Shown here piece by piece: positions 51,963 through 64,000 of a stretch of DNA of 64,000 bases (within the stretch, counting starts at the first letter, position 1; each line of letters starts with the position of its first letter). Under the pieces are notes generated by a model, which was not told where the DNA came from, searched no databases, and saw nothing but the letters and a program-made list of their open reading frames with translations. Made by a program: the position numbers and the translations under genes. Location of the stretch: the NCBI RefSeq assembly GCF_902506195.1, contig NZ_LR732817.1, positions 1,564,909-1,628,908 on the forward strand. The letters run 5' to 3'. This stretch comes from Citricoccus sp. K5 (GTDB lineage Bacteria > Actinomycetota > Actinomycetes > Actinomycetales > Micrococcaceae).

Positions 51963-54731
51963 ATGGCCCGTACCCCCAAGAAAAACTCCGCCCCGGCCGC
52001 CCAGGCGATCCCGCTGGAGCAGGAGAACATCGTGGACATCGACGTCTCCTCGGAGATGGAGACCTCGTTCCTCGAGTACGCGTATTCGGTGATCTACTCC
52101 CGCGCCCTGCCGGACGCCCGGGACGGCATGAAGCCGGTGCAGCGGCGGATCCTGTACATGATGAGCCAGATGGGACTGCGCCCGGACAAGGGCCATGTGA
52201 AGTCCGCCCGCGTGGTCGGCGAGGTCATGGGCAAACTGCACCCGCACGGGGACACGGCGATCTACGACGCCATGGTGCGCCTGGCCCAGCCGTTCTCCCA
52301 GCGCCTGCCGTTGGTGGACGGACACGGCAACTTCGGCTCCCTCGACGACGGCCCCGCCGCCCCGCGCTACACGGAGGCCCGGCTCGCTCCGGCCGCCCTG
52401 GCCATGACGACCTCGCTGGACGAGGACGTGGTGGACTTCGTGCCGAACTACGACAACCAGTTCCTGCAGCCCGCCGTGCTGCCGGCCGCCTTCCCGAACC
52501 TGCTCGTCAACGGCGCTTCTGGTATCGCGGTCGGCATGGCCACCAACATGGCCCCGCACAACCTGCGCGAGGTGATCGCCGCGGCCCGCCACCTGCTCGC
52601 CCACCCCGACGCGACCCTGGCGGACCTCATGGAGCACGTCCCCGGGCCCGACCTGCCCTCGGGCGGCCGCATCGTCGGCCTGGACGGGGTGCGGGACGCC
52701 TATGAGACCGGACGCGGCTCCTTCAAGACACGCGCCAAGGTCGCCGTGGAGCAGGTGACGGCCCGCAAGACGGGGCTCGTGGTCACCGAGCTGCCCTACG
52801 GCGTGGGCCCGGAGAAGGTGATCGAGAAGATCAAGGACGCCGTCAACGCCAAGAAGCTCACGGGCATCGCGGACGTGAACGACCTGACGGACCGCCACCA
52901 CGGACTCCAACTCGTCATCGAGCTCAAAAGCGGATTCAACCCGCAGGGCGTGCTCGCCCAGCTGTACAAGACGACGCCGCTGGAGGAGTCCTTCGGCATC
53001 AACAACGTGGCGCTCGTGGACGGCCAGCCCCGTACCCTCGGCCTGCGGGAACTGCTGCAGGTGTACGTGCGCCACCGGATCGACGTGGTCCGGCGGCGCA
53101 GCGCCTACCGGTTGGGCAAGAAGCAGGATCGCCTGCACCTGGTCGAGGGTCTGCTGCTGGCCCTGGTGGACATCGACGAGGTCATCCAGATCATCCGCAC
53201 CTCGGATGACACGGCGGCAGCCCGGACCCGGCTGATGGGTGTCTTCGACCTGACCGAGATCCAGGCCAACCACATCCTCGAGCTGCGCCTGCGCCAGCTG
53301 ACGAAATACTCCCGGCTCGACCTCGAAGCCGAGCAGGACGACCTGCAGAAGGCGATCGCCGAGCTCGAGGCCATCCTCGCCTCGGAGCAGCGGCTGCGCG
53401 ACCTCGTCTCCGGTGAACTGGCGGACATGGCCGAGGAGCACGGCGACGACCGCCGCACGGTGCTGCTGGAGTCCGAGAACCTCGCGCCCGTCAGCGCCGG
53501 CGGCACCGGTCAACTCGGGGCCACCCCGGCGGCCGGTGCGGGTGCCACTTCCCGGGCCGCCCTGCCGGGTGGCGGCGCGGACGGGCTCATGGTCCCTGAC
53601 ACCCCGTGCTGGGTGGTGCTCAGCACGGCGGGCCAGCTGGCCCGTACCGCCGATGACACCCCGCTGGCCACGGGCGGCCGCCGCCAGCGCCATGACGCCT
53701 ACCGCTCGGTGGTCCCGGCGACGGCGCGGGGCGAGATCGGCGCCCTCACCTCCTCGGGGCGCCTCCAGCGCGTGCAGGTCGTGGACATCCCGGCCCTGAC
53801 CGAGTCCTCCCCCACGCCAAACCTCACCGCGGGGGTGAATGTCAAGGACTTCCTCACCCTGCAGCGCGGCGAATCGCTCGTGGCCTTGGTTCCGCTGAAC
53901 ACCGTGCTGGCGCTGGGCACGCGGAACGGCATCGTCAAGCGCGTCAACCCCGAGTGGCCGCTGAACCGTGACGACTTCGACGCCATCGCGCTCAAGGGCA
54001 ACGACGTGGTCGTCGGCGCCGGCACAGCCCGTGATGAGGACCAGCTGGTCTTCATCACCCGCAAGGGCCAGCTGCTACGGTACGCCGCATCGCTGGTGCG
54101 GCCGCAGGGCCGTACCGCCGGGGGCATGGCCGGCATCAAGGTGGCCGCGGACGATGCCGTGATCGCCTTCTCCGCCGTCCCGGCCGACACCATCGGTGAG
54201 GATGCGGAGGAGGGCCACCGGGCCGTCGTCGTGACCGTGGCGACGGGTGAGGACACGCTGCCCGGTACCGTCCCGGGGTCCGTGAAGAGGACTCCGCTGG
54301 ACGAGTACCCGGCGAAGGGCCGCGCCACCGGCGGTGTCCGCGCCCACCGGTTGCTCAAGGGCGAGACCCTGCTGTCCCTGGCGTGGGCCGGGGCCGAGCC
54401 CGCGCTTGGGGCCTCCGCCCAGGGTGTGGCCCGCGCCCTGCCGGCCGAGTTCGGCCCCCGGGACGGCTCCGGGCTGGCCATGGACCAGCTCGTCGAGGCC
54501 CTCGGTGCAGGGGCCTCTCCGCTCGCGTCCGCCCCGGTTGCCGGGGCCGTCGCCGGCAGCGCGTCCGCCGCCGCTCAGCCCGAGGGCGGCGCCGATGCGG
54601 ACAGCGCGGAACAGGCCCTCTTCGGAGAGACGCTGTTCGGCGAGACCGAGGGCCGCCGTGGCCTGGCCGAGGCACCGACGGACACCGACCCCTTCGCGGC
54701 CGGCTCCGATGCGGTGATCACCGGGGACTGA
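51963..54731 (+). CDS. parC: DNA topoisomerase IV subunit A
   Basis: The DNA-cleaving subunit of a type IIA topoisomerase. The catalytic Tyr136 is in APRYTEARL. The quinolone-determining stretch reads [12 protein letters not shown] (residues 93-104), with Thr98 and Asp102 at the positions of E. coli ParC Ser80 and Glu84. The C-terminal beta-propeller repeats are present from about residue 490, but I do not see the GyrA box, which favours ParC over GyrA. A 100-residue Ala/Gly-rich tail follows. At 922 aa it is longer than E. coli ParC. Its stop overlaps the 3' end of the convergent cydDC gene by 14 nt. Confidence 0.92.
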
Positions 54732-57700
54732 CCCCTCCGGCTCCGTCCAGTTCCAGGTGCACCTGGCCGGAGCCGGCGAACCGACGGTCATGGGTCACCA
54801 TCACCGCCGTGCGGTCCGCCAGGGCGGCGCGCAGGTCCGCCACCAGGTCGGCAGCCTCGTCGGCACCCAGGTGGGCGGTCGGTTCGTCCAGTAGCACGAC
54901 GTCGGCCCGGGCCAGCAGCGCTCGGGCGACGGCCACCCGCTGACGCTGGCCACCGGAGAGGAAGTGCCCGGAGGGGCCGACCCTCGTGTCCAGGCCGTCC
55001 AGGCCGTCCGGGGCGGCGTCCAGCCAGTCCCCCAGGCCCACGAGCTCCAGGACAGAGATGAGCTCACCGTCCGAGGGACGGTCCTCCGGATCCCGGGCCA
55101 AGTTCAGGTTGGAGCGGAGCGTGGAGTCGAACAGGTAGGCGTCCTGCGGGCACCAGGCCACGGCGCTCAGGGCGGCGTCTGACGAGTCCACCGGGCCACC
55201 GGTGGACTCCAGGACGTACCGGCCCTGCCGTGGCCCGAGGAAGCCGAGCAGGACCGCCAACAGGGTCGACTTCCCGGAGCCCGAGGGCCCGGTGACGACC
55301 GCGAGCTGGCCACGGCGGACCGACAGGTCCAGGTCCCGGAAGACGTCCGTCGCCGTCCCGGGGTAGCGTACTGCGGCCGCCGAGAGCTCGATCCCGGTGA
55401 CGGAAACCAGGTCCGCACCTGCGTCTGCCTCAGGTTCGGTGGCGTTGTCCCGGGCAGAGTCCGGCGCGGGGTCCGAGGCGGAACCCGAGTCGTTCTCCGC
55501 GGTGAGCAGCGGCGCGGTCTTGGCCAGCTGCCGGGACAGGATCGCCGCCTCCTGGCAGGCTGTGCTGTACAGGCCCAGGGGCTCGGCCAGGGCCAGCAGC
55601 AGGAACACGACCATGGCGGTGACGGGTGCGGTCACGCCGTTCTGGACGCAGAGCACCAAGGTCTGCACCGCCGCCCAGCCGGAGAGCAGGGACGCGAGGG
55701 CCTGTCCGAAGCCGGTGGCCGCCGCATTGCGCCTCAGGGGACGGTCCGCGGCGCGGTCGGCGGCCCCGAACCGGTCCGCGGCGAGTGCCGCCGCGCCGTT
55801 GCCGGCCAGATCCGGGGTCGCCGCGAACAGGGCGGTGGTGCGCTGCAGCAGCCCGGTGCGGTGGTCCGTCAGGGCGCGGGTGGTCTGCCGGTCGGCCAGC
55901 CCCACCACGAGCGGCACCAGCACGAGGCCGGCCAGCCCGGCGACCACCGCCGGCCACCAGGCCGCCGGGGCCATCAGGGCCACGATGAGGACGGTGATCA
56001 GCCAACTGATGACGGCGGCCGGGACCGGGACGATCACGCGTGGCAAAGCATCGCGCAGCTCGTCCACGTCCGCCACCAGCACGGACAGTGCGCCACCGGA
56101 ACGGGTCAGCCGTCCCCACTGGGCCGCCTGCGAGCCGAGGGCGTCCCATAGCCGCAGCCGGATCCGATTCGCCCACGCGAGCACGGCGTCATGGGTGTCC
56201 AGGCGTTCGAGGTAGCGGAACAGGGCGCGTCCGATGCCGAAGAACCGCACCAGGACGATCACCGAGAGCAGGTAGAGCACGGGAGGCTGATAGGCCGCCT
56301 GCACGATCAGCCAGCCGGAGAGGGCGGACAGCAGCGCCGCGGCCAGCGTGGCCGCCGTGGCCCAGGCCACGCCGGCGATGAACGTCCGATCCGTCAGCGG
56401 CAAGAGCCGGAGCCAGCCGCGCCAGCGCCGCCAGCGCGGCCATCGTTTCGAGAGGCTGGTCCCGGTCCGCGGGTCGGCACCCGTCGCGCTCGGCGTCTCA
56501 ACTGCGGTCGGCGTCTCGGCCGCTGCGGCCGTGACGGCGGAGCCGTCGTGGTCCGGGACCGGCGTCCCGCTCGAGTATGTGACGTCCGGCTGCTGCGTCA
56601 GCTGCGGCTCCGGCGAGGCAGGGAGCCTCTGCGGAACGCCCTTCGGCGCCCCGATGACCCTGTCCGCGAGCGCCTGCAGGTCGCGGTCATGCGAGGCCAC
56701 CAGCAGGATGGCCTCCACGGCACGGCCACCCGGGAGGTGCCCGGAGCGCAGTGCGGCCAGGACGGCGCGGATCCGCTGGGCGTTCTCGGCATCGAGGTGG
56801 GCCGTCGGCTCGTCCAGCACGATCAGCCAGGCGGCGGAGTCCACGGGACCCGCCATCAGGCGGACCAGCACGCGGGCCAGGCCGAGCCGGCGTCGTTCCC
56901 CGGGGCTGAGCTCGTCGGGGTGGCGCGGTGCGAAGCCGTCGAGACCGCAGGCGGCGAGCGCGTCGGCCACCAGGAGGCCGTCCCGGCCGGGAGCGCCGTC
57001 CGGGCCCGCGGACGCCACTGCGTACAGCGCCAGCTCGGCGCCGACCGTCGGCTCGCTGAACGCGGGGTGCTGGCCGAGCCAGACCACGCGCCGGCCGGCC
57101 AGCCCAGCGGCCGTGCCGGTGAACTCGGCCTCGCCGCACCGCAGCACCCCGGTGAGGGCGGACAGGACCGTCGTCTTGCCCGTCCCGCTGGGACCGCCGA
57201 GGACGGTCAGTTCGCCGGGGGCGAGGTCCAGGTCCAGGTGCCCGACGACGGCCGGGAACGTCCCGCCGTCGGGGTCCCGGTAGGCGATGCCCAGACCTCG
57301 GAGGACCAGCCGGTCCTCCCGCGCGTGGGCAGACGGGTGTGTACCCGGGCCCGCATCCTGGCCGGTGGCTGCTTGGGCGACCGGTGCCACGGCTGGCTCT
57401 CCATCCGCCGCCACGTCCGTGCCGAGGACGTCCGAGAGCGAGGCCGGGACGGGACGGTCCAGGCCGGCGCGGGCGCGGCGCAGGGCCTCCACCCCGTCCT
57501 CGGAGGCGTGGTGGGCGGAGCCGATGTCCCGAAACGGCAGGTAGACCTCGGGGGCGAGGGTGAGCACGAGCAGCCCGGTGTAGAGGTCGAGCTCCCCGTA
57601 GACCAGCCGCACGCCGATGAAGACGGCGACCACGGCCACGGACAGGGTGCTGATCAGCTCGAGGGCGAAGCCGGACATGAAGGCCGTCTTCAGGGTGGTC

Positions 57701-58476
57701 ATGGTGGTGGCCCGGTAGCGGTCCGAGACCCCCGCCAGCGCCTGACGCTGCGTGCCCGCCCTCCGCAGGCCGACCAGGACGGGTAGCCCCCGGGCCAGTT
57801 CCAGCACGTGGTGCGAGAGTCGGTCCAGTCCCTCGGCGGCCTGCTGGACTCGATCCTCGGTGTACTGCCCGATCAGGACCATGAACACGGGGATGAGTGG
57901 GATCGTCAACACCAGCACCAGGGCGGAGACCCAGTCGTGGGTGAGGATCCACACCCCGAGCATGAGCGGCATGACCGCGGCGGTCAGCAGGGCGGGCAGG
58001 TACTGGGTGAAGTACTTGTCGAGCCCGTCCAGGCCGGAGGAGGCGAGCACGGAGTCCTCCCCCGCCCGGTCCGCACCGGCCCCGGCAGAGGCCAGGCGGT
58101 GGGCGACCATCCGGTGGCGCAGCTCCTCCTTGGCGCCCAGGGCTGCGCGCCGGGAGAACACCTGCTGTCCCCAGGTGGCGGCGGCCCGGGCGAGGACACC
58201 GGCCAGGCCGAGGGCCACGACCTGGGCGAGGGTGGTTCCGGCCGCGTCCGAGAGCAGCCCGTGGGCGAGCGGATCGTAGGACGCCGGGTCCGGTGCGAAG
58301 AGCAGGCCGAGGAGATCGCTGCTCTCTGGAGCCGGGAGGCGCTCGGCCAGCCAGGTGATGCCCCGGGCCAGGGCGGTGGCGAGCAGGATCCAGCCGGCGG
58401 CCTTGACCCCGGCGAGCAGAGCCAGCAGGGCCAGGGCGGCCCGGCCGGAACGGGAGGTGGGCAGTTCGGGTCTCAC
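54718..58476 (-). CDS. cydDC: CydD-CydC fusion: thiol reductant ABC exporter
   Basis: A single 1252-aa polypeptide carrying both halves of the heterodimeric exporter needed to assemble cytochrome bd. Half one has six membrane helices and an ATPase with GPSGTGKTT, the degenerate signature LSPGERRR and Walker [13 protein letters not shown]. Half two starts near residue 700 with further helices, then [25 protein letters not shown] and [12 protein letters not shown]. In many bacteria these are separate genes. GTG 58476 overlaps the cydB stop by GTGA. Confidence 0.94.
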
Positions 58477-59501
58477 ACCGGTGTCACCACGTGTGACTCC
58501 GGGATGTGCGTCTCATGCAACCGCTTCCGGAAGACCCAGTACACGAAGGCCGAGTAGGCCAGGATGATCGGCACCATGATCACGGCGACCCAGGCCATGA
58601 AGTTCAGCGTGTACTCCGAGGAGGAGGCATTCATGGCCGTCAAGTTGAAGGCCGGATCGATGGTGGAGGGCAGCACCACGGGGAACACCGCCAGGAAGAT
58701 GCCGGCGGCGCCGGCCAGCAGGGAGGCCCCCAGGGCGATGAAGGTCCAGCCCTCGCGGCGGAGCTGGGCCGCCATCAGCGCTCCCAGGGCGGCTGCGAGG
58801 GCCACGGCCAACAGGATCCACGGGACAAGGCTGGCCTGGCGTGAGACCACCACGACGCCCCACGCGCCCATGGGCAGCAGGTAGAGGGCCAGCCAGCGGG
58901 TGAGGTGGCGGTGCGCCGCCTCCCGCGGGGCGCCGTCGGTCTTCAGGCCGAGGTAGGCCCAGCCCATGGCCAGCGAGAACCCGACGACGGCCAGGCCGCC
59001 GAGCACGCCCTCCCAGGACAGCCAGGCGAACGGACCGCCCACGCGGTCGCCGTTGGCGTTCAGCGGCAGGCCCGTGGTGGACACGGCCAGCATCAGGCCG
59101 ATGCTGAAGGCGGCCACGGCAGAGCCACCGGCCATGCACCAGTCCCAGCGGTCCCGGGTCCGGGCGGTCAGGGCCTTGCCCCGGTACTCGATGGAGACGG
59201 CCCGGAGGATCAGGGCCAGCAGGGTGATCGTCAACGGGATGTAGAGGCCGGCGAACAGAGCCGCGTACCAGAGCGGGAAGGCGGCGAACATGGCCCCCGC
59301 AGCGGTGACCAGCCAGACCTCGTTGCCGTCCCAGACGGGGCCGATGGTGTTGAGGATGACCCGGCGCTGGCTCTCATTGCGGGCCCAGCCCCTCATCAGC
59401 ATGCCGACGCCGAGGTCGAAGCCGTCGAGGAAGAGGTAGCCCACCCAGAGCACGGCCACCAGGACGAACCAGAAGGTGGGAAGGAACTCGATCGATTCCA
59501 T
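58473..59501 (-). CDS. cydB: Cytochrome bd ubiquinol/menaquinol oxidase subunit II
   Basis: A 342-aa membrane subunit with about eight or nine helices. The signatures FLPTFWFVLVAVLWVGYLFLDGFDLG at the N-terminus and GPVWDGNEVWLVTAAGAMFAAFPLWYA are diagnostic. It follows cydA by 88 nt and is coupled to cydDC. Together with CydA it reduces oxygen with high affinity without pumping protons. Confidence 0.97.
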   Translation of the reverse strand: MESIEFLPTFWFVLVAVLWVGYLFLDGFDLGVGMLMRGWARNESQRRVILNTIGPVWDGNEVWLVTAAGAMFAAFPLWYAALFAGLYIPLTITLLALILRAVSIEYRGKALTARTRDRWDWCMAGGSAVAAFSIGLMLAVSTTGLPLNANGDRVGGPFAWLSWEGVLGGLAVVGFSLAMGWAYLGLKTDGAPREAAHRHLTRWLALYLLPMGAWGVVVVSRQASLVPWILLAVALAAALGALMAAQLRREGWTFIALGASLLAGAAGIFLAVFPVVLPSTIDPAFNLTAMNASSSEYTLNFMAWVAVIMVPIILAYSAFVYWVFRKRLHETHIPESHVVTPV

Positions 59502-59589: not shown

Positions 59590-61185
59590 TCAGTACGCGA
59601 AGGCCAGGACATCGGAGTCAACGGTGCCGTCCTTCCCCGCGCCACCGGCGTCGTCATCGTGCTCGTCCTGGGTGAGTTCGGGCATGCCGGCCGGCACCCC
59701 TCCCTTGACGTAGCGGGTGAGCAGGACGACCTCCACGACCAGGAGCACCGCGTAGATGGTGGTGAGGAGGATGAGCGAGAACAACAGCTCGCCCGCGCCC
59801 ACCCCCGGGGACACGGCCGCGGCCGTGTACATCCAGACCTGGTCGATTCCGGTGGGATCGGGGTTCGGGGCCACGACGAACGGCTGCCGTCCCATCTCGG
59901 TGAAGATCCATCCGGCCGCATTGGCGCCGAACGGCGCCAGGATGCCGGCCACGGCCAACCGCATCAGCGGCTTGGACGCCGGCACGGTGCCCTTCCGCGT
60001 CAGCCAGAGCGCGATCGCCGCCGCCAGGGCCGCGAGACCACCGAAGGTGATCATGATGCGGAAGCCCCAGTAGGTGACCTCCATGACCGGCAGGTAGTCG
60101 ATCTCCTGGCCGGCGCGCTCGCCGTACATCGGATCGTCCGGCAGATGGGTGCCGTAGTCCTCCTGGTACTGCGGGATCAGGGTGTTCACACCGGCCACGT
60201 CGGTGGTGAAGTTGTTGTGGGCCAGGAAGGACAGCAGCCCGGGGATCTCGAAGACGCCCACGACATCGTCGCAGTCGGTGGCTCCGTCGCTGCGCAGGTC
60301 CGCCACCGAGAGCACGGAGAACGCCGTCCCGTCATGGCAGGCCGCCTCGGCGGCCGCCATCTTCAGCGGTTGCTGCTGGATCATCAGCTGTGCCTGGGCA
60401 TGGCCGCTGAAGGCGGTGCCCAGGAAGGCCACGAGCGCGATCCAGGCTCCCCACCGCAAGGAGGAGTACCAGACCCGGTAGTCCGTTTCGTCCCGTCCCT
60501 TGGAGCCGGTGGTACCCACCACCACGGTCCCGTCCGCGGCCACGGTGTCGATGCCGTCCCGGCGCCGCTTCCACAGGTGGAACCACGCGATGCCGAGCAG
60601 GAAACCGCCGGCCACGGAGAGGGCACCGGCCAGGGTGTGCGGGAAGTGCACCAGCAGGGTGCTGTTGGTCAGCACGGCCCAGATGTCATTCATCACGGGA
60701 CGGCCGTCCACCATCTCGACCCCGACCGGGTGCTGCATCCACGCATTGGCGGCCAGGATGAAATAGGCGGAGAACACGGTGCCGATGACGGCGCACCAGA
60801 TCGAGGCGAGGTGCACCCGCTTCGGCAAGCGCTGCCAGCCGAAGATCCAGAGACCGAGGAACACGGACTCCAGGAAGAACGCCATGAGCGCCTCCAGCGC
60901 CAACGGAGCCCCGAACACGTCCCCCACGAAGCGGGAGTACTCGGACCAGGCCATCCCGAACTGGAACTCCTGCACCAGTCCGGTGGCCACGCCCATGATG
61001 AAGTTGATGAGGAAGAGCTTCCCCCAGAACTTCGTCATCCGCAGGTAGTGCTCCCGGCCGGTGCGGTGCCACATGGTCTGCAGGGTGGCCACCACCAGGC
61101 CCAGCCCGATGGTCAGCGGGACCATCATGAAGTGATACACGGTGGTGATGCCGAACTGCCACCGGGCAATGTCCAGGGGATCCAT
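59590..61185 (-). CDS. cydA: Cytochrome bd oxidase subunit I
   Basis: The haem-bearing catalytic subunit, 531 aa. The N-terminal WQFGITTVYHFMMVPLTIG carries the haem-ligand His. The conserved Glu pair is in LEALMAFFLESVFLG, and the second haem His is in the VHFPHTLAGA region. The quinol (Q) loop is short, as in other actinobacteria. ATG 61185 has a GAGGGAAGG ribosome binding site. Upstream lies a TAGAAG -10-like element inside the first BlaI-type dyad, so repression is likely. Confidence 0.97.
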   Translation of the reverse strand: MDPLDIARWQFGITTVYHFMMVPLTIGLGLVVATLQTMWHRTGREHYLRMTKFWGKLFLINFIMGVATGLVQEFQFGMAWSEYSRFVGDVFGAPLALEALMAFFLESVFLGLWIFGWQRLPKRVHLASIWCAVIGTVFSAYFILAANAWMQHPVGVEMVDGRPVMNDIWAVLTNSTLLVHFPHTLAGALSVAGGFLLGIAWFHLWKRRRDGIDTVAADGTVVVGTTGSKGRDETDYRVWYSSLRWGAWIALVAFLGTAFSGHAQAQLMIQQQPLKMAAAEAACHDGTAFSVLSVADLRSDGATDCDDVVGVFEIPGLLSFLAHNNFTTDVAGVNTLIPQYQEDYGTHLPDDPMYGERAGQEIDYLPVMEVTYWGFRIMITFGGLAALAAAIALWLTRKGTVPASKPLMRLAVAGILAPFGANAAGWIFTEMGRQPFVVAPNPDPTGIDQVWMYTAAAVSPGVGAGELLFSLILLTTIYAVLLVVEVVLLTRYVKGGVPAGMPELTQDEHDDDAGGAGKDGTVDSDVLAFAY

Positions 61186-61276
61186 GGGTACACCCTTCCC
61201 TCGGTGCAGCGTGGGGTCCGCACCGGTCCGGACCGAACGCCGTCTCGTGTGGGCGAGGCGGGCGTCCGGCACTCGA

Positions 61277-61282
61277 CTTCTA
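61277..61282 (-). promoter_or_regulatory. Putative -10 element of the cyd operon
   Basis: TAGAAG on the minus strand, overlapping the right half-site (read on that strand) of the dyad at 61278-61294. It would give cydA a leader of about 85 nt. Confidence 0.45.
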
Positions 61283-61294
61283 CAGCTTGTAGAA
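61278..61294. promoter_or_regulatory. Operator-like dyad 1 (cyd side)
   Basis: TTCTACAGCTTGTAGAA: perfect 7-bp arms around GCT. The inner TACA/TGTA half-sites are those of BlaI/MecI/CopY operators. It covers the putative cydA -10 and lies 60 nt from the start of the BlaI-type gene. Confidence 0.75.
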
Positions 61295-61311
61295 ACCAGG
61301 ATAGCGCCAAG

Positions 61312-61328
61312 TTCTACGTCCTGTAGAA
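61312..61328. promoter_or_regulatory. Operator-like dyad 2 (blaI side)
   Basis: TTCTACGTCCTGTAGAA: the same 17-bp format with 6 of 7 arm positions paired. Its centre is 34 bp from that of dyad 1, about three helical turns. It covers the TAGAAT -10 of the BlaI-type gene, as expected for autoregulation. Confidence 0.75.
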
Positions 61329-61329
61329 T
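61324..61329 (+). promoter_or_regulatory. Putative -10 element of the BlaI-type gene (TAGAAT)
   Basis: TAGAAT lies 24 nt before GTG 61354, inside the right arm of dyad 2. Confidence 0.5.
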
Positions 61330-61353
61330 AAAGTCGAGTCCGGAAGGACACCT

Positions 61354-61725
61354 GTGGTGGAGATCATTGCTTTGAGGGAGGCGCCCGTGGCACTGGGAGA
61401 TTTGGAACGGTCCGTGATGGACCTGCTGTGGGACCGGCCGGGAGCCCATACGGCCAATGACGTGCGTGATGCCCTGGCGGGAGACCTCGCCGTCACGACC
61501 GTGCTCACCGTGCTGTCACGCCTGGAGAAGAAGGGCCTGGTCCACCGCGACGGCGGACGCCGGCCCCATCGCTATGCCGCCGCCTCGTCCCGTGAGGACC
61601 ACACCGTCGGCCTGCTCAACGAGGTACTCGGCTCCGTGCCGGACCGCGAGGCCGTCCTGGCCCGCTTCATCGGCGAGATCGGCCCCGATGAGGCCGCTGC
61701 CGTACGTCGTCTGCTGGAATCCTGA
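61354..61725 (+). CDS. blaI: BlaI/MecI/CopY-family transcriptional repressor
   Basis: A 123-aa winged-helix repressor. The pattern LGDLERSVMDLLWDRPGAHTANDV, then TTVLTVLSRLEKKGLVHR and a GRRPHRYAA wing, is characteristic of the family. The C-terminal dimerisation region follows. The start is GTG 61354, with AAGGA upstream; GTG 61357 is also possible. It is divergent from cydABDC and followed by an M56 peptidase, the classic partner that inactivates such repressors. The two dyads upstream are its likely binding sites. Confidence 0.93.
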   Translation: MVEIIALREAPVALGDLERSVMDLLWDRPGAHTANDVRDALAGDLAVTTVLTVLSRLEKKGLVHRDGGRRPHRYAAASSREDHTVGLLNEVLGSVPDREAVLARFIGEIGPDEAAAVRRLLES

Positions 61726-61845: not shown

Positions 61846-62826
61846 GTGTCCGTCATGCTGCTCGCCGCGCTGGCCGTGATCCTGGCCTGGCCGGTCCCGG
61901 TCCTGCTCGGCCGCGCGCGCTGGGTCCGCCGGGCTCCCGCCGCCGCCATGGCGCTCTGGCAGTCCGTCGCCCTCGCCGGCGGCCTCTCCCTGATCGGCTT
62001 CCCCCTCCTGTGGGGGCTCACCCCCTTCGGGGACACCGTGGTCGAGGCGGCCCCCGCCTTCGTCCGGGCCCTCGTGGAGGGTTCCTGGATCCCCCTGCTC
62101 GAGCATGACCCGTGGCTGCCTACGCGCATCGCCGCCGCCACCCTGGCCCTGCTGCTCTTCGCCCACCTCGTGCTCACCCTGGCCGTCACCGCAGTGAAGA
62201 CCGTGGCCAACCGGCGCCGTCACCGCCAGATGGTCGAACTCCTGGCAGCACCTCCGTCCGAACGCAGTCGACTGGCGGAGGACATCGCCGGGACTCCCAC
62301 GCGGGTGCTGCCCCACGATGTCCCGCTGGCCTACTGCCTTCCCGGCCTGACCGGTTCCCTGACCGTCCTGTCCCGCGGCCTGCTGGACCAATTGTCCGAA
62401 CCGGAGGTGGCCGCCGTCGTGGCTCACGAGCGAGCCCACCTGCGCCAACGGCACGACCTGCTCCGGCTGGCCTTCGAGGCCTGGCATCGGGCGGTGGCCT
62501 GGTTGCCCACCACGGCGATGGCCCAACGGGCTGTGGCCGGACTCACCGAGATGATGGCGGACGACGCCGCGCTGGCCGTCCACGACCGCCGAGACCTGGT
62601 GCGGGCCATCGTGCTCACCGGTGAAGCCGGGTCACCGACGGCACCGGCGTCCCCGGCCCCGCGACCACCACGGGCGGAGAACGTCCAGAGGGACGAATCC
62701 GTCCCCCTGACCCTGCGCCTGTACCGCCTGCTGTCCCCCGCCGACCCCCTGCCGGTGGCGGTGCGCCTCCTGGTCGTCGTGGCGGCGTTGTGCCTGGCCG
62801 CCTTCCCGCTGGTGCTGTTGCTGTAG
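61846..62826 (+). CDS. M56-family (BlaR1-like) membrane metallopeptidase
   Basis: A 326-aa integral membrane protease. Membrane helices lie near residues 3-20, 30-55, 85-115 and at the C-terminus (about 300-326). The zinc motif HERAH is in VVAHERAHLRQRHD, with a probable third ligand Glu in LTEMMADDAAL. Unlike BlaR1 it has no C-terminal penicillin-binding sensor domain, so its signal is not a beta-lactam bound outside the cell. It should cleave or release the adjacent repressor (inference from BlaR1/BlaI). ATG 61855 is the alternative start. Confidence 0.9.
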   Translation: MSVMLLAALAVILAWPVPVLLGRARWVRRAPAAAMALWQSVALAGGLSLIGFPLLWGLTPFGDTVVEAAPAFVRALVEGSWIPLLEHDPWLPTRIAAATLALLLFAHLVLTLAVTAVKTVANRRRHRQMVELLAAPPSERSRLAEDIAGTPTRVLPHDVPLAYCLPGLTGSLTVLSRGLLDQLSEPEVAAVVAHERAHLRQRHDLLRLAFEAWHRAVAWLPTTAMAQRAVAGLTEMMADDAALAVHDRRDLVRAIVLTGEAGSPTAPASPAPRPPRAENVQRDESVPLTLRLYRLLSPADPLPVAVRLLVVVAALCLAAFPLVLLL

Positions 62827-62940: not shown

Positions 62941-63016
62941 GGTGCTTCGGTGGCGTCGACCGCCACCTCCCCACCACCCAACCCCTTTGACCCCCACGAA
63001 CGGACCAGGCCCCATA

Positions 63017-64000
63017 GTGCAAGGCAACGCGACATTCCGTCACTCCAATGCTTCACTCCTCTCCGTGACGGAAGTACTGGCCCCTGTCACCGTGACCAGT
63101 GCACAGCTCGACGAGGAGTTGGCTGATGTCCTGAAGGGGCTGCGGCTCCCCAAGGGCCTGCTGCCGCGCGTCGCGGGCGTCAACGCACGCCGCAATTGGG
63201 AGCACCCCGGTCACTTCCAGTTGGGCGCCGCTGAAGCCGGCCGCCAGGCCATGACCAAGGCCGGCGTCCGGCCGGACCAGATCGGGCTCATGGTCAATAC
63301 CTCCGTCACGCGCGAGACCCTCGAACCGTCCGTGGCCGTCCGCATCCACCACGAGATGGACCTGCCCACCTCCGCCACGAACTTCGACATCACCAACGCG
63401 TGCCTGGGCTTCGTCAACGGAATCACCCTGGCAGCCTCCATGATCGACTCCGGTCAGGTCGACTACGCCGTCGTCGTGGCCGGCGAGGACTCCGTCAAGG
63501 TCCAGCAGGCCACCCTGGAGAACCTGAAGCAGGAGGGCGTGGACCGCAGCAACTTCATGGAGCAATTCGCCTCCCTGACCCTGGGCTCCGGGGCCGCCGC
63601 AGCCGTCATCGGGCGCACCGACCAGCACCCCGAGGGCCACCGGATCGTCCGCGGCATCACCCGCGCCGGCACTGACCACCATGACCTCTGCGTGGGCGAC
63701 CACAAGGGCATGTTCACGGATTCCACCGCTCTGCTCAAGGACGGACTCGAGCTCGTCATGGACGCCTGGAACGACGTCCCGGCAGACTGGGGCTGGTCGG
63801 ACATGGACCGCTACGTCACCCACCAGGTCTCCCGGCTCCACACCGATTCGATCACGGAGGCGACCGGCCTGGACCCGGCCCGGTTCCCGGTCACCTTCCC
63901 CGAGCTCGGCAACGTCGGGCCGGCGTCCCTGCCGATCACCCTGGCCCGGGAGGTGGACCAGTTGTCGGCCGGCGACAAGGTGCTCTGCATGGGAGTCGGT
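63017..64000 (+). CDS. oleA: OleA: thiolase-superfamily acyl-CoA condensing enzyme (partial, runs off the window)
   Basis: The first 328 codons have no stop, so only about 10-25 residues should be missing. It belongs to the 3-oxoacyl-ACP synthase III fold. Catalytic Cys129 is in ITNACLGF, Glu103 in RETLEPS, His269 in THQVS, and Asn299 in GNVGPAS. The Cys-Glu (26) and His-Asn (30) spacings equal those of Xanthomonas OleA (Glu117, Cys143, His285, Asn315). OleA joins two acyl-CoAs head to head to start long-chain olefin synthesis, as in Micrococcus. The GTG at 63017 gives the N-terminus MQGNATFRHSNASLLSV; the ribosome binding site is weak. Confidence 0.9.
   Translation, partial: MQGNATFRHSNASLLSVTEVLAPVTVTSAQLDEELADVLKGLRLPKGLLPRVAGVNARRNWEHPGHFQLGAAEAGRQAMTKAGVRPDQIGLMVNTSVTRETLEPSVAVRIHHEMDLPTSATNFDITNACLGFVNGITLAASMIDSGQVDYAVVVAGEDSVKVQQATLENLKQEGVDRSNFMEQFASLTLGSGAAAAVIGRTDQHPEGHRIVRGITRAGTDHHDLCVGDHKGMFTDSTALLKDGLELVMDAWNDVPADWGWSDMDRYVTHQVSRLHTDSITEATGLDPARFPVTFPELGNVGPASLPITLAREVDQLSAGDKVLCMGVG

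Follow-up and report, generated by a model that had tools for sequence, protein, structure and literature searches.

What does a BlaI-type repressor control when it lies, together with a membrane protease, divergently from the genes of cytochrome bd? The BlaI family is known for beta-lactamase control; its dimers bind dyads of the TACA/TGTA type and repress, and an M56 protease lifts the repression. In the window (the whole stretch of DNA that was analysed, 64,000 nucleotides of a 3.88-Mb Citricoccus-type genome, G000), the minus strand carries cydA (59590..61185, cytochrome bd subunit I, Pfam 1.4e-148), cydB (58473..59501, subunit II, Pfam 3.7e-91), and cydDC (54718..58476, a fused ABC transporter of 1252 aa, Pfam ABC_tran and ABC_membrane). 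The plus strand carries blaI (61387..61725), encoding a BlaI/MecI-type repressor of 112 aa, and the gene for an M56-like membrane zinc protease of 326 aa (61846..62826) with HExxH and AYCLPG motifs and no sensor domain. A sequence-only reading of this DNA had placed cydABDC divergent from blaI; the order is as claimed, but cydD and cydC form one fused gene. The Penicillinase_R winged-helix domain is present in BlaI above the family cut-off (PF03965, E 2.2e-20), and among named relatives Citricoccus zhacaiensis has the best-matching blaI locus (96% BlaI identity). The GTG at 61387 is preferred as the blaI start over the GTG at 61354 because the BlaI proteins of relatives align only from there, their alignment to the 123-aa reading beginning at about residue 7-13. 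Downstream of the protease gene, positions 62942-64000 hold a ketoacyl-synthase III-like gene and, after it, a long fused gene; we take the pair to resemble oleA-oleBC of olefin biosynthesis.

The spacer between cydA and blaI contains two putative operators of the format TTCTACA-N3-TGTAGAA, neither assigned to a strand. Dyad 1, on the cydA side (TTCTACAGCTTGTAGAA, 61278..61294), has no mismatch to this format, and dyad 2, on the blaI side (TTCTACGTCCTGTAGAA, 61312..61328), has one, a G at position 7. Two 17-bp dyads of the same format had been read from the letters, and both are confirmed in place, with centres at 61286 and 61320, 34 bp apart. At up to three mismatches the format occurs 3 times in the window versus 0.09 times in dinucleotide shuffles, and the only matches with 0-1 mismatch are dyads 1 and 2. 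The pair keeps a spacing of 34-35 bp in seven of the eight species of the genus while the rest of the spacer drifts; dyad 1 is found with 0-1 mismatch in 7/8 genus members and dyad 2 is retained in 8/8, the deepest-branching member (G006) having dyad 2 only. An inverted repeat, ACTCGACTT / AAGTCGAGT (61271-61279 and 61331-61339), flanks the pair; it is present in the close species G001 and G007 and absent in G002 and G005.

Both dyads had also been read as covering -10 elements, which holds better for blaI than for cydA. The candidate -10 of blaI (TAGAAT, 61324..61329, plus strand) appears, by its sequence, to be a fair element and lies within dyad 2. The -10 proposed for cydA (TAGAAG, 61277..61282, minus strand), within dyad 1, is weak and not TANNNT, and it has a rival in TATCCT (61298..61303, minus strand), which lies between dyads 1 and 2 at a position where TANNNT is preserved in the close relatives G001 and G007. 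A sigma-70 scan found no two-hexamer promoter in the spacer, so all three -10 elements are candidates, and the overlap of dyad 1 with a cydA-side -10 is uncertain.

Dyads of this kind could be palindromes that arose by chance, or a structural element that regulates nothing. A comparison of the spacer across Micrococcaceae, as the sequence-only reading had proposed, finds 1-3 dyads in all 69 divergent cydA-blaI spacers of named loci (three in 55, two in 13, one in 1). These spacers, 21.3 kb in all, hold 192 dyads, and the 556 kb of flanks none; the 69 loci come from related genomes and are not independent. Over the 80 named Micrococcaceae loci the operator consensus is TTCTAC-N5-GTAGAA, with positions 7-11 free to vary, and TACA/TGTA-type dyads lie upstream of blaI in 80/80, with or without linked cyd. 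Such conservation and enrichment contradict an origin by chance or structure, whose probability is close to nil.

The dyads follow blaI even where cyd does not. Eleven of the 80 loci, mostly from Nesterenkonia, have no cydA beside blaI, and a dyad precedes blaI in all eleven. In Nesterenkonia G047, in G145 (with two cydA copies), and in G010, cydA lies apart from blaI, yet two dyads stand upstream of each; the displaced cydA of G047 is only 42% identical. The parC-like gene, blaI, and the M56 gene adjoin without cyd between them in G047 (L361, G047:C1:148100-153500, noted together with L278), the parC-like neighbour being as in the window. A cydAB of only about 40% identity is on another contig, preceded by two dyads, as if a foreign cyd had been placed under the same regulator. 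In Arthrobacter sp. AL12 (L241), the cydA-blaI spacer measures 3.8 kb, a length that an insertion could explain, and still has dyads at its cydA end and at its blaI end.

A BlaI homologue is found in 125/149 family genomes and 30/32 genera. On average, a genome with BlaI has 4.36 sites at up to one mismatch and a genome that lacks it 0.48 (Mann-Whitney p 4e-12); with the reversed pattern as control, the means are 0.55 and 0.17. The true contrast is, if anything, larger, since the group without BlaI includes G090, an assembly only 85% complete in which four sites occur. The blaI gene is retained in seven genomes of the family that have no cydA, and some of these have many sites (15 in G018). 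Each comparative test supports the dyads as operators: their position is conserved, they accompany cydA in trans, and they co-occur with BlaI. The same observations bear on the proposal that another respiration regulator, of the haem, redox, or CRP type, binds the dyads and merely happens to adjoin blaI. The content of the regulon described below resembles that of HrrSA in Corynebacterium (PMC7337898), as this proposal would have it, but the dyads precede blaI even with cyd elsewhere, site number follows BlaI presence, and the outer half-site bases shift with BlaI divergence (TTCTAC to TACKAC) while the 6-N5-6 layout is kept; a bystander blaI is thus highly improbable.

Putative BlaI operators can be sought across the genome. 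The 3.88-Mb genome has 8 exact TTCTAC-N5-GTAGAA cores, where a first-order Markov model predicts about 0.002 and the reversed control pattern has 1 match. Four relatives have 13, 15, 11, and 10 exact core sites, with 0, 0, 1, and 0 control matches. At up to three mismatches there is no genome-wide enrichment (82 sites versus 97 for the control), and only sites with 0-1 mismatch are informative. The genome-wide search for the dyad and its downstream genes, also suggested beforehand, finds respiratory genes behind 8/8 exact sites: cyd/blaI (two sites), tlpA-resB-ccsA (two copies), hemQ, a copC-copD/ctaG operon, a copC on contig C2 with ctaG as neighbour, and an ABC-ctaA operon. Contig C2 (L022) spans 16 kb with an operator, copC, copD/ctaG, ctaG, and metal-transport genes, and these regulon members may lie on a mobile element.

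In relatives, further operator-bearing genes include ctaB, ctaC, ctaE-qcrC, SURF1, sdhC, hemE, atpB, and hmp, and the cytochrome-c maturation genes tlpA-(ccdA)-resB-ccsA are among the targets. The core site of the atp operon has one mismatch here (TTCGAC-N5-GTAGAA), one in G008, and none in G014. Across the five genomes, by our own reading, respiratory genes follow about 47/57 exact sites, two or three of these assignments being debatable (copper/thiol clusters). About 10/57 have no clear respiratory target; they include recurrent membrane-protein targets without a Pfam name and a pyridoxamine-oxidase-like gene. Some weaker sites that fall within ordinary genes or next to them (alcohol dehydrogenase, L029; isocitrate lyase, L162) were treated as chance.

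Several other genes recur beside dyads. In at least three genera a dyad lies repeatedly upstream of the gene for a small membrane protein that matches no Pfam family (L030, L161, L269, L289), and another small membrane protein has an upstream operator in two different families (L155, L356). An adjacent pair of membrane proteins without Pfam match recurs near a dyad (L028, L284, L288, L301) and adjoins a MATE transporter in some genomes. The flavohaemoglobin gene hmp has a dyad in several genera (L105, L110, L157, L168, L170), with an Rrf2-type regulator gene as its neighbour in L110 and L168; in this genome, no hmp is preceded by a site with 0-1 mismatch.

Since the operator is common to both oxidase branches, succinate dehydrogenase, ATP synthase, and the supply of cofactors, the response probably concerns the capacity of the respiratory chain and its assembly, not the selection of cyd in preference to aa3. 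The sequence-only reading had proposed a BlaI-M56 switch for the terminal oxidase; its linkage and operators at cydABDC stand, but the proposal is too narrow for sites that extend across the respiratory chain. A switch confined to cyd, or one answering cell-wall or beta-lactam stress, would fit the repute of the BlaI family in beta-lactamase control, and cyd is the operon physically linked to blaI. BlaI control of blaC in M. tuberculosis (PMC5473688) also agrees with it. Against such a switch, most respiratory operons are preceded by sites, blaI persists in the seven cydA-less family genomes noted above, and the M56 protein lacks a sensor domain. Judged from gene context, no beta-lactamase or PBP gene stands at the 8 exact sites here or at the annotated exact sites of the four relatives. 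A narrow switch is accordingly quite improbable, and the best reading of the comparative data is that BlaI-M56 regulates the respiratory chain and not a beta-lactam response.

The second protein of the pair is best called M56-like, given that Pfam scores it at 27.1 for M56, short of the cut-off of 31, while M48 is above cut-off; with this score, its pairing with the repressor rests on synteny, fold, and analogy. The HExxH and ExxAD motifs are invariant across 40 M56 homologues. The AlphaFold2 model (mean pLDDT 90.4) has no added domain: the 326-aa chain ends one helix past the protease domain, and no transpeptidase-like Pfam match, hence no penicillin-binding sensor domain, was found. Model and Pfam thus agree with the earlier statement that a beta-lactam sensor domain is lacking. 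The closest solved structures are S. aureus BlaR1 chains, at a Foldseek probability of up to 0.99 and E of about 0.05, a match that is supportive rather than proof. VIA gives Z 8.0 against S. aureus BlaR1 over 193 residues (rmsd 5.7), a modest Z for a helical protein, with Ste24p-type proteases next at Z 6.6. The strand that precedes the catalytic helix bears a cysteine, in the motif AYC[L/V/I]PG, that is found in >90% of these M56-like proteins and in 19/20 class-level ones; it is missing in the genome's second paralogue (L042) and in the class-level exception L323. As a hypothesis from this conservation, the cysteine may act in sensing. The second BlaI of the genome, adjacent to that paralogue (L042, G000:C1:3657489), is 38% identical and has no dyads nearby.

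These features of the protease are also where the most serious competing account finds its footing. BlaI might bind the operators and escape cleavage by M56, with BlaI or its level answering a ligand (haem, metal, or redox) and M56 having another role. The M56 score under the Pfam cut-off and the missing sensor domain suit this account, as does the M. tuberculosis system, where the BlaR signal is an open question and WhiB4 has been proposed to act on blaR expression (PMC5473688). Set against it are the adjacent and co-directional placement of blaI and M56 in nearly all loci retrieved, including cyd-less ones, the invariant HExxH and ExxAD motifs, and a BlaI in which comparison of homologues found no conserved cysteine. 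This account, a ligand-responsive BlaI together with a separate role for M56, is unlikely, at perhaps a minor share of the probability.

Inactivation of BlaI by the M56-like protein remains the preferred reading, and the pair is found well beyond the family. Among 20 order-level loci, taken from the best BlaI matches, cyd genes lie beside blaI-M56 in 19, sometimes co-directional after cydDC; at class level this is so in 7/20. The 6-N5-6 layout is retained, with outer half-sites shifted to TACTAC or TACGAC. In three genomes with BlaI 87-88% identical to 2g9w, TACKAC-N5-GTMGTA precedes blaI (3/3), cydA (2/3), and the atp operon (3/3). This looser mycobacterial pattern is weakly enriched and not above control in every genome, so only its matches at blaI, cyd, and atp were used. 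According to two papers (PMC5473688, citing Sala 2009; PMC12565901), M. tuberculosis BlaI is found at cyd and atp promoters and represses Rv1303-atp; the mycobacterial operators match these targets and serve as a positive control. M. tuberculosis BlaI (2g9w) is the sole PDB match of the window's BlaI, and the two are taken as orthologs (Rv1846c) on the basis of best match and the shared targets, namely their own operon, cyd, and atp.

The M. tuberculosis pair BlaI-BlaR (Rv1846c-Rv1845c) resembles that of the window in an M56 protein without sensor domain (PMC5473688) and, in mycobacteria, in equivalent operators before blaI, cyd, and atp; it also controls blaC (PMC5473688). In the mycobacteria examined, cyd does not adjoin blaI, whereas in most Micrococcaceae it does, and here the operator is TTCTAC-N5-GTAGAA and the targets extend to oxidase, haem, copper, and cytochrome-c assembly genes. 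The BlaI-BlaR1 and MecI-MecR1 systems of S. aureus share a winged-helix repressor, TACA/TGTA-type dyads, and a membrane zinc protease of similar fold; the window differs in having no penicillin-binding sensor domain and respiratory targets in place of beta-lactamase or PBP2a. By its targets, the closest functional analogue is HrrSA of C. glutamicum, which acts on ctaE-qcrCAB, ctaC, ctaB, ctaA, sdhCD, hemE, and cydABDC (PMC7337898). Its proteins are unrelated to BlaI-M56: HrrSA consists of a histidine kinase and a response regulator, is haem-responsive, and is mainly activating.

As a whole, the explanation that most probably applies is one of BlaI-bound dyads, a respiratory-chain regulon, and an M56-like protease that probably inactivates BlaI. 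Operator sequence, regulon, and linkage to BlaI emerge from comparison of genomes; from these we infer repression, BlaI cleavage, and the signal. A BlaI dimer would bind each TTCTAC-N5-GTAGAA site in the blaI/cydA spacer, repressing its own operon (blaI-M56) and repressing or tuning cydABDC. Through operators before ctaA, copC/copD-ctaG, tlpA-(ccdA)-resB-ccsA, and hemQ, and in relatives also before ctaB, ctaC, ctaE-qcrC, SURF1, sdhC, atp, and hmp, BlaI would govern the capacity and assembly of the aerobic respiratory chain. Upon a fault in the membrane or respiratory state, the M56-like protease would probably inactivate BlaI, possibly sensing that state through its transmembrane region or the conserved cysteine of its catalytic domain. 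A bolder extension, tentative at about one chance in a few, makes BlaI-M56 an ancestral, class-wide actinobacterial regulator of the entire aerobic respiratory chain, whose protease would detect respiratory fault directly by means of the M56 cysteine, a switch gated by redox state, NO, or metal; the control of beta-lactamases in staphylococci and mycobacteria would, equally tentatively, be a distinct or subsequent use of this device.

That BlaI controls cyd and atp is already known from M. tuberculosis, where part of the regulon's breadth may be known as well. A literature search mostly of papers outside subscription found no account of respiratory genes under BlaI-M56 in Micrococcaceae; that breadth, the conserved blaI-M56/cyd synteny, and the clade-specific cysteine appear to be new. 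If true, a pair annotated as antibiotic-resistance regulators is recast as control of energy metabolism. The finding offers a hypothesis for what the mycobacterial BlaR, devoid of a sensor domain, senses, namely the condition of the respiratory chain. In mycobacteria, where the core targets are the same, both cytochrome bd and ATP synthase are relevant for drugs. In many Actinobacteria, what passes for an antibiotic-resistance switch is thus probably a regulator of energy metabolism in general.
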